A DNA stretch of 64,000 bases from positions 150,510 to 214,509 of the forward strand of contig NZ_LS422984.1 in assembly GCF_900411375.1 (NCBI RefSeq), in the 5' to 3' direction. The position numbers and the translations under genes are program-made. A model generated the notes under the pieces. The model saw only the letters and a program-made list of their open reading frames with translations, was not told the DNA's origin and ran no database searches. This DNA comes from Lentilactobacillus raoultii. Its GTDB lineage: Bacteria > Bacillota > Bacilli > Lactobacillales > Lactobacillaceae. This document shows positions 3,140-36,432 of the stretch, piece after piece (positions within the stretch are counted from its first letter, which is position 1; each line of letters opens with the position of its first letter).

Positions 3140-3169
3140 TTGTTGAGTAAGATTAGAATTAATTATTAT
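3140..3169 (+). promoter_or_regulatory. Candidate promoter for valS leader
   Basis: TTGTTG (3140-3145) and TATTAT (3164-3169) are 18 bp apart, just ahead of the T-box Stem I. The position fits a leader starting near 3176. Confidence 0.4.
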
Positions 3170-3177
3170 TAAAGCAT

Positions 3178-3410
3178 TGAGCAAGAGAGTAGCTAAAGGG
3201 CATGTTTCAGAAAGAGAATGGGTAATGGAAAATTCTTACATGCGATTAGATGAAAGTAACTTGTGAGCTGTCTGTTCGAAAAGTTTGAGAGCAGATCGGT
3301 GTTATCTGACCGTTATCAAGATACTGAGTGGGGTGTCATAACCCAATTTAGGTGGTACCGCGAAAACATTTCGTCCTAATAATTTTATTTTAAGACGAAG
3401 TGTTTTTATT
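3178..3410 (+). promoter_or_regulatory. T-box leader of valS
   Basis: Stem I begins at GAGCAAG (about 3179). Its 3' side carries GTA (3256-3258) followed by one base and then CTTG closing the lower helix, so GUA (valine) is the likely specifier. The T-box sequence AGGTGGTACCGCG is at 3350-3362; the bulge TGGT suits a tRNA with discriminator A. The terminator pairs AAAACATTTCGTC (3363-3375) with GACGAAGTGTTTT (3394-3406), followed by U-rich sequence. Uncharged tRNA-Val should allow readthrough into valS. It fills the gap between tpx and valS. Confidence 0.9.
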
Positions 3411-11653: not shown

Positions 11654-11682
11654 TTGACGAATGGCCAATTTCCGATTATGAT
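11654..11682 (+). promoter_or_regulatory. Promoter for the T-box transporter operon
   Basis: TTGACG (11654-11659) and TATGAT (11677-11682) with an exact 17-bp spacer, directly ahead of Stem I of the leader. Strong SigA-type match. Confidence 0.7.
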
Positions 11683-11689
11683 TATTAGC

Positions 11690-11961
11690 ATAAATTAAAG
11701 AATTTTAAAGACAATGATCAGAACGATAGGCTTTATCAAATTTCAGAAAGCTCACGATGATGGAAAGTGGGTATTTGATTAGTTTATCTCACGTCTGGGA
11801 GTCATTTTCCTGAAAAAAGTAGGGAAAAGCGGTGAGCGCGTTATTGCTGAAGTTTAGTTTTCTAAACTCGTTGAGGCTTTTCATTTGAGTGAAAAGTAAA
11901 ACTGAGGTGGAACCGCGATAATTATCGTCCTCTTAAGCTGTAATAGCTTAAGAGGTTTTTT
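11690..11961 (+). promoter_or_regulatory. T-box leader, first module (Stem I, antiterminator, terminator)
   Basis: The lower Stem I helix pairs AATGATCAGA (about 11712-11722) with TCTGG...TCATT. On its 3' side CAC (11790-11792) is followed by one base and then the helix, the same layout seen in the valS and alaS leaders here, so CAC (histidine) is the best specifier candidate. A stem-III-like hairpin CTTTTCA/TGAAAAG (11877-11896) precedes TGAGGTGGAACCGCG (11903-11917). The terminator CCTCTTAAGCT/AGCTTAAGAGG (11929-11955) ends in six T. A caution: TGGA in the T box would pair with a discriminator U. Confidence 0.85.
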
Positions 11962-11962
11962 A

Positions 11963-12087
11963 GTTAGGTTGGAAACTAAACTTCTTGAGGCAGTAAATGT
12001 GAGTTTACTGCGAATTGAGGTGGAACCGCGAACAAACTGTCATCGTCCTCTTGAGTGAATAATGTGATAACTCAAGAGGACTTTTTT
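11963..12087 (+). promoter_or_regulatory. Second T-box antiterminator/terminator module without its own Stem I
   Basis: A second copy of the downstream half of a T box: TAAACTTCTTGAGGC (compare TAAACTCGTTGAGGC in the first module), hairpin GCAGTAAA/TTTACTGC (11990-12011), TGAGGTGGAACCGCG (12016-12030) and terminator GTCCTCTTGAG/CTCAAGAGGAC (12045-12081) with six T. Only about 15 bases separate it from terminator 1, too few for a second Stem I, so one specifier must serve both modules. Confidence 0.85.
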
Positions 12088-12104
12088 AATGGAGGGAAAG
12101 CAAA

Positions 12105-12749
12105 ATGATTCAATACATTGAACAGATTTTACCAGCTTTATTGTCGGGAACTAAAATGACTTTATCAATTTTCTTTTGGACGTTAATTTGTTCAATTCCG
12201 TTAGGCGCTATTTTGGCCTTGGGACTAGTTAGTAATTTTAAACCATTAGTTTGGCTTTTAAACATCTATGATTGGTTAATGCGGGGAACACCGTTGTTGC
12301 TTCAACTAATTTTTGTCTTTTACGGATTACCGATCATGGGCATTATCTTTGAGCGATATGATGCCGCTCTGTTTGCTTTTATTTTGAATTACACAGCCTA
12401 TTTTGCAGAAATTTTTAGAGGTGGTTTTCAATCGGTGCCAAGAGGCCAATTTGAAAGTGCTCGTGTCTTACGCTTGTCTTACAGTCAGACGATTCGAAAG
12501 ATTATTATTCCACAGGTTTTTAAAATTGTGTTGCCTTCAATTGGTAATGAGGTAATCAATCTGGTTAAGGATTCATCTTTAGTTTATGTCATTGGGCTAG
12601 GTGATCTTCTGAGAGCCGGAAATGTTGCCACTGCACGAGATGTCACGTTATTGCCACTCGTACTGGTTGGTATTATTTACCTGGCGCTGACAGCGATTTG
12701 CACGGTTGTTCTAAAAATGATTGAGAAACGTTCAAGCGTGTGGAGATAG
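12105..12749 (+). CDS. Polar amino-acid ABC transporter, permease
   Basis: Inner-membrane subunit of a PAAT-family importer (HisMQ/GlnP type), 214 aa with about five helices. The EAA loop that contacts the ATPase is visible as EIFRGGFQSVPRGQFESARVL-like sequence near residue 100-120. Start ATG after GGAGGGAAAG. It heads a permease-ATPase-binding protein operon behind a double T-box module. The substrate is inferred from the CAC specifier as histidine; homology alone says only a polar amino acid. Confidence 0.9.
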   Translation: MIQYIEQILPALLSGTKMTLSIFFWTLICSIPLGAILALGLVSNFKPLVWLLNIYDWLMRGTPLLLQLIFVFYGLPIMGIIFERYDAALFAFILNYTAYFAEIFRGGFQSVPRGQFESARVLRLSYSQTIRKIIIPQVFKIVLPSIGNEVINLVKDSSLVYVIGLGDLLRAGNVATARDVTLLPLVLVGIIYLALTAICTVVLKMIEKRSSVWR

Positions 12750-12764: not shown

Positions 12765-13400
12765 ATGTTGGAAATTAAGGGATTAACCAAAAAATTTGGT
12801 AATAAAACGGTTATTAATAATTTATCAATGACGGTTAAGGACGATGAGATTATGGCCATAGTTGGGCCGTCAGGGGCAGGTAAGACAACGTTGTTAAGGT
12901 GTATCACCGGATTGGAAAAAGTTAACAGCGGGACGTTTTACTGGGATGGTAAACGGTTTGATCCTGCCAATCCTGGAAAAGAAGATACGATTATTGGTGT
13001 TGTCTTTCAAGATTATCAGTTATTTCCAAATTTAACTGTGATGGGTAATATAACGTTGGCACCAACAATGGTAAAGAAAGAGTCCAAGGACCAGGTAACA
13101 CAGCGGGCAACAGAACTTTTAAAGCGTTTGGGTCTTCAAGACAAAGAAACATTGTATCCTTATCAACTTTCAGGAGGTCAAAAACAACGGGTGGCGATTG
13201 TTCGTGCGCTTGCAATGAATCCTAAAATTTTGTGCTATGACGAGCCGACTTCGGCGCTTGATCCCGCATTGCGTGATGAGGTTGCTCAAATTATTTTAGA
13301 TTTAAAAAAACAAAAAATGACTCAAATTGTTGTAACGCATGATATGGAATTTGCTCAAACCGTTGCCGATGAGATTAAGCGGGTTGAACAAATCCAATAG
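12765..13400 (+). CDS. Polar amino-acid ABC transporter, ATP-binding protein
   Basis: Energises the importer. Walker A GPSGAGKTT (about residues 33-41), Q-loop in VFQDYQLFPN, signature LSGGQKQR, Walker B LCYDEPTSALDP and the switch histidine in VVTHD are all present. The protein is 211 aa and stops about 17 residues after the switch histidine, roughly 30 residues short of GlnQ/HisP-type relatives, which lack nothing catalytic by this loss. Fifteen bp separate it from the permease and 14 bp from the binding protein. Confidence 0.93.
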   Translation: MLEIKGLTKKFGNKTVINNLSMTVKDDEIMAIVGPSGAGKTTLLRCITGLEKVNSGTFYWDGKRFDPANPGKEDTIIGVVFQDYQLFPNLTVMGNITLAPTMVKKESKDQVTQRATELLKRLGLQDKETLYPYQLSGGQKQRVAIVRALAMNPKILCYDEPTSALDPALRDEVAQIILDLKKQKMTQIVVTHDMEFAQTVADEIKRVEQIQ

Positions 13401-13414
13401 AGGGGGATAATCAT

Positions 13415-14269
13415 ATGGCAAAGAAATTTAAGAAATTCCCGCTTATCATCGTTGGACTGCTAGTGCTGACGTTGTTATCTGGCTGTCGATTTGAATCGCG
13501 ACAAAAAATGGCTACGAATCCGGATACTTGGTCGGTCGTTTCCAAGCAAAAAAAGATTGTCATTGGGTTGGATGACAGTTTTGTGCCGATGGGGTTTCAG
13601 ACCAAGAGCGGCCGGATTGTTGGTTATGATGTCGACTTAGCAAAGGCCGTTTTTAAAGAATATGGCATCAAAGTTGACTTTCAGCCAATTGATTGGTCTA
13701 TGAATGTGACTGAGTTAAGAAACGGGACGATTGACTTGATATGGAACGGCTTTTCAATTAATCCACAACGAGCCAAAAAAGTCACTTTTAGCAAACCATA
13801 TTTGGTTAATAAACAAGTATTGGTTTCTAAAAAGAAAAATCACATTAACAATTTTGCGGATATGAAAGGACGCGTTGCAGGTGTCCAGGCGGGTTCTGCC
13901 GGAGCGATGGATATTGATGACAAACCTAAACTATTAAAGGATCTTATTAAAAATCATAGCCCAATTCTTTACGATTCTTTTACTGAGGCGTTCATTGATT
14001 TAAATTCTAATCGAATTCAAGGTCTATTGATCGATAGCATTTATGCAGGGTATTATATTAAACATCAAAAGAATCGGGCTTCTTATCGAAGTGTGCCAAG
14101 TCAATTTCCTAAAGAATATTATGGGGTTGGTATGAGAAAACATGACAAAAAGCTTAAACAGAAAATTGATGCTGGTCTGGATCGACTCGCCAAGAATGGC
14201 CAGTTGGCTAAGATCAACAAGAAGTGGTTTGGAACAAATCAATACAGTCCTTTAATGAAACATCACTAA
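13415..14269 (+). CDS. Polar amino-acid ABC transporter, substrate-binding lipoprotein
   Basis: Extracytoplasmic family 3 binding protein. The signal peptide is basic (KKFKKF) and hydrophobic to residue 21, with the lipobox LLSGC and lipidated Cys24. The mature part shows the usual family motifs: GLDDSFVPMGF, GYDVDLAKAV and LWNGFSINPQRAKKVTFSKPY-like strings. 284 aa. Last gene of the T-box operon; a terminator follows. Ligand is inferred, not shown. Confidence 0.92.
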   Translation: MAKKFKKFPLIIVGLLVLTLLSGCRFESRQKMATNPDTWSVVSKQKKIVIGLDDSFVPMGFQTKSGRIVGYDVDLAKAVFKEYGIKVDFQPIDWSMNVTELRNGTIDLIWNGFSINPQRAKKVTFSKPYLVNKQVLVSKKKNHINNFADMKGRVAGVQAGSAGAMDIDDKPKLLKDLIKNHSPILYDSFTEAFIDLNSNRIQGLLIDSIYAGYYIKHQKNRASYRSVPSQFPKEYYGVGMRKHDKKLKQKIDAGLDRLAKNGQLAKINKKWFGTNQYSPLMKHH

Positions 14270-36229: not shown

Positions 36230-36233
36230 TTGA

Positions 36234-36432
36234 ATGTCTTAAGAATATGTTAGGTCGAATTATTTTTCAGAAACGTTTTGGGTGATGTGAAAAGCGATTT
36301 AATCGATCTGATGCTCTCTTAACGAAATGATAACTAAACACAAGCTCTATTTAGAGATAAAAAGTGGTTACGATTAAACATCGTTGCAATCAGAGTGGTA
36401 CCGCGTCAACCGGCGTCTCTGTTAGCAACGGT
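36234..36432 (+). promoter_or_regulatory. T-box leader of alaS
   Basis: Stem I lower helix TTAAGA/TCTTAA (about 36239 and 36317) and upper helix AGGTCGA/TCGATCT frame an internal loop whose 3' strand is GAT-GCT-C: GCT (36313-36315) is the alanine specifier. The T-box AGAGTGGTACCGCG is at 36392-36405. The terminator that follows (ACCG...CGGT, then TTTTATTTT) is short. The region 36075-36464 is otherwise empty. Confidence 0.9.

Follow-up and report, generated by a model that had tools for sequence, protein, structure and literature searches.

Our findings point to a riboswitch in which a single tRNA sensor serves two decision points and in which one strand of the leader RNA has a partner in each. 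The window, that is, the whole 64,000-nucleotide stretch of DNA analysed here, carries a leader that by its sequence is a histidine (His) T-box riboswitch, in which a single Stem I is followed by two consecutive discriminator/terminator modules. The strand just 3' of its F-box, which we call P, can pair with either of two alternative partners, P1 in module 1 or P2, which opens module 2; the two predicted helices exclude each other, and covariation of both P:P1 and P:P2 is seen in 35 leaders from 20 genera. We observe these parts, the two alternative covarying helices, a fixed place of P2 before the second T-box, and the conservation of all of this across relatives. On this basis it seems to us probable, by a modest degree, that P2 displaces P1 once terminator 1 has been read through and so offers a second discriminator to the same Stem I for a second check.

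The T-box family model (RF00230, positions 1-219) matched 11705-11935 of the forward strand, on which all features described here lie, from end to end at 95.7 bits (gathering score 93). Its alignment places Stem I at 11711-11802, the specifier CAC at 11790-11792 and, together with a pattern found in relatives, the F-box at the end of Stem IIA/B at 11839-11843, where the letters CGTTA are what we take to be the F-box. An excerpt of PMC7583486 names the F-box as part of the IIA/B pseudoknot. Upstream, a sigma-70-like promoter, TTGACG-17-TATGAT at 11654-11682, is a weak candidate, with 10 of 12 matches and three such sites on both strands of the region where 1.1 are expected. Directly downstream of the first T-box unit lies a second Stem III/T-box/terminator module (11986-12087). 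Scored alone, 11936-12110 returned only the 3' part of the model (32.7 bits, E 4.5e-6), in an alignment where Stem III, T-box and antiterminator are well placed and the preceding letters align weakly, mostly as insertion or deletion. This rules out a second Stem I in 11936-12015 and bears out the initial annotation, which had described one Stem I followed by two antiterminator/terminator modules with no room for another. Fully tandem T-boxes have a Stem I in each unit, and the match of 11936-12110 to the 3' part of the model alone sets the leader apart from them; a second unit without its own Stem I, as in partially tandem T-boxes, is found in the window by RF00230 and in relatives by spacing only. 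Given the usual length of Stem I, the 86-116 nt between T-box cores would leave no space for a long one.

Direct reading confirmed the letters and coordinates on which that annotation had relied: TAAACT-x2-TTGAGGC is present twice, each terminator begins with CGTCCTCTT, and the T tract of terminator 1 is followed by 15 bases (11962-11976) before the TAAACT of module 2. Each module consists of Stem III, a TGAGGTGGAACCGCG box, a CCTC strand and a terminator, and the CCTC strands (11929-11932 and 12047-12050) belong to antiterminator and terminator alike. In module 1, Stem III (11876-11897; window fold and covariation) is followed by T-box 1 (11903-11917, core from 11906; RF00230), whose antiterminator helix A1 joins 11904-11907 to 11929-11932, and by terminator 1 (11929-11961), a 12-bp stem with a T tract at 11956-11961 that is supported by folding and by a terminator scan (11929-11955, 0.1 expected by chance). 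Module 2 repeats this order with Stem III at 11990-12011 (window fold and covariation), T-box 2 at 12016-12030 (core from 12019; 3' match of RF00230), an A1 helix between 12017-12020 and 12047-12050, and terminator 2 at 12045-12087, whose 12-bp stem has a 13-nt loop, past the scan's loop limit of 8, and folds at -20.3 kcal/mol before a T tract at 12082-12087. In all of 126 leaders each T-box has, 3' of it, a stable fold (averaging -21.3 kcal/mol for the first and -20.6 kcal/mol for the second) and then a T-rich tract; in addition, Stem III of module 2 covaries across relatives, and both results argue that the two-module leader is not a product of chance. The A1 helix of module 2 pairs in four of four positions in 121 of the 126, mostly with the same letters and hence less informatively. 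The pairing support among relatives that the annotation had called for is thus present, and its arrangement of one specifier with two decision points recurs in the 20 genera of the aligned set.

Several observations tie the leader to histidine, as had been guessed at the outset. The specifier fits the tRNA-His of the genome, located by a tRNA family search and bearing the anticodon GTG, and 128 of the 130 leaders show a CAC pattern ahead of the F-box; of the remaining two, L144 has the triplet when read by eye. Both T-box bulges of the window hold UGG followed by A in each module, the tRNA-His gene has, by eye, C at position 73 and a G before position 1, and the variable bulge base is G in one (module 1) and four (module 2) of 126 leaders; the rule that UGGN matches NCCA is waived for His in PMC7778990. 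The genes 3' of the leader encode a HisYZX-type transporter, namely an amino-acid ABC permease (12105-12749), which is the first regulated gene, and, in the same operon, an ATPase (12765-13400) and a substrate-binding protein (13415-14269). As far as an excerpt of PMC9413887 goes, His T-boxes precede hisYZX in Lactobacillales, with tandem ones in five Enterococcus species, and this, together with the specifier and the genomic tRNA-His(GTG), is why we label the operon histidine-related and its permease HisY-type. Relatives of that permease, the best of them from L. farraginis at 97% identity, place the window in Lentilactobacillus.

The strand P was absent from the initial annotation. It occupies 11849-11862, is defined by pairing and covariation, and in the window forms 14 bp with P2 (11849-11862 with 11971-11984, GAAGTTTAGTTTTC with GGAAACTAAACTTC) or 7 bp with P1 (11851-11857 with 11862-11868). 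When leaders are read side by side, P fits the start of module 2 better than that of module 1. In an alignment of 35 leaders made from sequence with no structure used, 83.6% of P:P2 cells are paired and covariation is 0.584, compared with 0.196 in shuffled versions, none of which reached as high in 500 trials, and at most 0.218 when the strands are slid out of register; the shuffles do not keep kinship and the slid versions do. P:P1, with the same P, gave 83.9% paired cells and a covariation of 0.418, compared with 0.200 shuffled and at most 0.185 slid. In nine of the 35 leaders no more than five of the nine P:P2 columns pair, which inspection by eye puts down to a shift of register, and this lowers the signal. 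Across 126 leaders the contiguous helix averages 11.8 bp for P:P2 and 6.9 bp for P:P1, with P:P2 longer in 119, equal in 4 and shorter in 3, and it extends at least 2 nt into the loop of P:P1 in 106.

Partners were also exchanged between genera. With offsets optimised alike for own and exchanged pairs and P2-TGAG spacings limited to 0-2 nt, own strands of 20 genera formed 188.3 of 200 pairs (minimum 179 in 300 draws) and exchanged strands 141.5 (maximum 155); the corresponding values are 116.5 (minimum 110) and 84.7 (maximum 92) for the 12 Lactobacillaceae genera, and 72.3 (minimum 67) and 59.7 (maximum 67) for the 8 other genera, where the effect is weaker and the ranges touch at 67. The P:P2 duplex has an energy of -18.2 kcal/mol with its own partner versus -9.1 kcal/mol with those of other genera, and the own duplex beats all other-genus partners in 75 of 129 leaders and lies within the best 5% in 111. 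An unanchored search of all letters between the T-boxes looked for the longest run complementary to P. This run ended 33-38 nt ahead of T-box 2 in 112 of 130 leaders, made up of 93 of the 100 from Lactobacillaceae and 19 of the 30 from elsewhere. A like search of module 1 put the partner at the same distance from T-box 1 in only 57 of the 130. Equal placing in the two modules is thus shown as far as module 2 goes and, for module 1, is no more than likely. The 130 leaders comprise 127 distinct stretches (repeats L032/L036, L033/L045 and L059/L159), the 126-leader set leaves out L127, L135, L188 and L193, and the 129-leader set leaves out L127. Two other origins for the fit of P2 to P were also considered and rejected: copying from module to module, as none of 126 leaders has the same 10 nt ahead of TGAG in both modules, and local hairpins in module 2, for which the mean pairing probability is 0.05 versus 0.70 with the P region.

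Folding predictions, which leave out Stem I, tRNA, polymerase and time, give a more mixed account. The fold of 11844-12036 holds exactly the 14-bp P:P2 helix (z -5.07, unmatched by any of 200 shuffles), with helix probabilities in the window of 0.99 for P:P2 and 0.003 for P:P1. From F-box to T-box 2, the mean predicted probability over 126 leaders is 0.67 for P:P2 and 0.20 for P:P1; in RNA lacking P2, that of P:P1 exceeds 0.5 in 85 of 126. P:P2 is favoured in only 95 of the 126, the genera g16, g25, g55 and g83 favour P1 on average, and P:P1 is absent from the minimum-energy structure of the truncated window RNA (genera are labelled by g-numbers, with named loci assigned to g1, g15 and g12 from their names or by likeness). 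These four genera and the absence of P:P1 from the truncated fold count against a handover from P1 to P2 and are not minor. RNAalifold, asked for a single consensus, returned neither P:P1 nor P:P2.

In the mechanism that we propose, P would pair with P1 as polymerase moves past Stem II, setting module 1 beside Stem I, where uncharged tRNA-His would hold antiterminator 1 open. Read-through of terminator 1 would then let P2 emerge. Because P2 lies 3' of terminator 1, strand exchange could take place only after read-through, and because P2 has the longer match to P, including the loop of P:P1, it could displace P1 by a toehold and so loop out module 1. Stem III and T-box of module 2 would come to lie about where module 1 had been, and Stem I, holding the same or a fresh tRNA-His, would be queried a second time before the transporter genes are reached; in the window the two tests of charging would be separated by 113 nt of transcription. 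Most leaders have a TGAG-to-T-box distance of 33 or 34 nt, both in module 1 (111 of 127) and in module 2 (116 of 128). In the window itself, the end of P1 lies 37 nt ahead of T-box 1 and that of P2 34 nt ahead of T-box 2. These distances suggest that P:P1 and P:P2 place both discriminators at approximately the same spot relative to Stem I. We infer that the strands exchange in real time and that tRNA is transferred, or rebinds, between the modules; the benefit would be less leak and a second look at tRNA charging, and two checkpoints could, as the initial annotation had proposed, sharpen the response or cut leak. A stronger form of the idea amounts to proofreading in hardware, in which toehold exchange hands one tRNA-holding aptamer from platform to platform and a single sensor suffices for two tests of tRNA-His charging; we put this form just short of an even call. 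A bound antiterminator may, as a counterpoint, be too stable to release its tRNA. If the handover is real, one riboswitch sensor drives two expression platforms in series, a design that would be of use for low-leak RNA control and for the study of proofreading by transcription time.

The same data must be weighed against other readings. The two modules might act as independent checkpoints with no handover, module 2 sensing tRNA-His alone or through a loosely tethered Stem I, and P2 being a relic of duplication. Both modules do possess Stem III and T-box elements, and hairpins of the P:P1 type also stand ahead of TGAG in single-module hisY leaders (by eye, for example L212, L217 and L223), so that any copy of P's partner would have been able to pair with P from the outset. 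A relic would drift, however, whereas P2 co-varies with P across genera, and simple duplication would not yield pairing with loop bases beyond the reach of P1, as seen in 106 leaders, in a helix that is longer than P:P1 in 119 of 126; we therefore regard this reading as unlikely. P:P2 could instead serve some other purpose, such as nuclease protection of the leader or, once terminator 1 has been passed, clearance of module 1, which the helix encloses entirely as a loop, with the tRNA staying on antiterminator 1 and terminator 2 acting as a fixed leak filter. A protective helix needs no fixed position, yet P2 lies 33-38 nt ahead of T-box 2 in 112 of the 130 leaders searched without anchors, and a fixed terminator has no need of the T-box and A1 helix that module 2 keeps in 121 of 126. 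This, too, strikes us as rather unlikely.

We consider it very improbable that module 2 is a duplicate in decay that no longer has a role. Some second T-boxes do have an altered core, ACAGCG for ACCGCG (L048 and L065, both Levilactobacillus, and L200), but the second Stem III covaries, A1 pairs fully in 121 of 126, a T tract after a stable fold follows T-box 2 in all 126, and the form persists in many genera. As to origin, the single-module hisY leaders and the hairpins that other T-boxes of the genome carry at this place suggest a likely history, in which there was one docking hairpin whose 3' strand was duplicated together with the discriminator, giving one 5' strand and two 3' strands. The hairpin before Stem III was considered as a mark of His T-boxes and rejected, since similar hairpins occur in the genome's other T-boxes; that comparison covers 14 of 30 loci, and its value for the window's own leader (L014) is off owing to a false CGTTG match.

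A class of T-boxes with duplicated terminator-antiterminator elements was reportedly described by Vitreschak et al. in RNA in 2008 and appears to have the same architecture. The initial annotation had likewise held that partly duplicated T boxes are known, and 'partially tandem T-boxes' are indeed listed, with modes of action unknown, in an excerpt of the 2020 review PMC7583486; these appear to share the architecture of the window, to which we add a shared covarying strand. We accordingly treat the architecture as already known and the shared-strand mechanism as the new part. Among the titles and abstracts listed on tandem, partial, duplicated or strand-exchange T-boxes, key 2008/2009 surveys aside, none describes a strand common to two T-box modules, and a covarying strand with two competing partners would supply a concrete, testable mechanism for the partially tandem class. 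Compared with the His type before hisYZX, as it appears in PMC9413887, the window has the same Stem I, specifier, F-box, Stem III, T-box, terminator and transporter operon, and adds a second module on one Stem I and the contested strand P. The portion of PMC12452182 on which we draw treats tandem T-boxes as complete copies: the fully tandem thrS and trp leaders, like the window, make two T-box decisions in series before one operon, but in those leaders every copy comes with a sensor and a platform to itself, and two uncharged tRNAs are reportedly required. The tandem glycine riboswitch in the same portion shares with the window an unequal number of sensors and platforms, and is its mirror image, with two sensors and one platform.

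Doubling is found for another amino acid as well. Nine loci of another Bacilli family (L260-L267 and L269) are double-module T-boxes with a UUC specifier, where it could be read from alignments, and have chorismate mutase- or DAHP synthase-like ORFs of the aromatic pathway downstream, by eye. These Phe-type doubles gave no signal of a shared strand (own duplexes -12.6, barely different from swapped ones at -10.3; runs 7.2 versus 6.4), so that doubling does not require one. Some of their module 2 strands seem by eye to fit Stem III of module 1, a likeness without statistical support.

Elsewhere in the window, 3168-3381 is another T-box (123.7 bits), ahead of an ORF that resembles valyl-tRNA synthetase by eye, and 36230-36423 gives a third RF00230 match of 63.3 bits, under the gathering score. 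Scoring of 150 of the 209 candidates in the whole genome (3.07 Mb) gave 50 matches to RF00230 with E no higher than 0.001, a lower bound, and the double-module pattern occurs in this genome at one place only.

A strict pattern of two T-boxes with 86-116 nt between their cores, which is blind to the amino acid, was found in 176 of 397 Lactobacillaceae genomes (18 of 40 genera), 70 of 395 Lactobacillales genomes (22 of 80 genera) and 10 of 299 genomes of the class (6 of 119 genera), in samples that overlap. The reversed control pattern occurred in one genome of the family sample and one of the class sample, and was not seen among the matches listed for the order sample. These counts are a lower bound, as several loci outside the pattern are double by eye. 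The loci read from the family and order samples are 30 each among the matches listed, a further 40 were hand-picked to span genera, and 30 of 40 hisY leader matches were read by eye. Within the 34 named Lactobacillaceae loci (L035-L068), the pattern finds two T-boxes 105-128 nt apart in 25; six Levilactobacillus loci have one T-box by pattern, and the two of these that were read by eye, L048 and L065, have an altered T-box in addition; three Lapidilactobacillus loci have none by pattern and one altered T-box each by a looser pattern.

A HisY permease lies directly 3' of 95 of the 100 double loci L100-L199 (tblastn), which with the CAC pattern in 128 of 130 leaders indicates that the double form is almost confined to histidine among the Lactobacillales loci read. 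For two of the other five the downstream gene was named by eye from its translation: L152 precedes a HisX-like binding protein, and L185 lies ahead of a hisZ-like gene, which implies that the form is not confined to transport. Of the last three, L150 has a CAC specifier with no permease match, the contig ends 3' of L155, and L127 precedes an APC-type permease (by eye), has no CAC specifier and matches Stem I weakly. In L127, the 5' flanks of the two modules are near complements by eye (14 of 15), a pairing that the scripted duplexes did not pick. Two hisY leaders, L213 and L218, have T-boxes about 350 and about 280 nt apart with an F-box before each, and are apparent full tandems.
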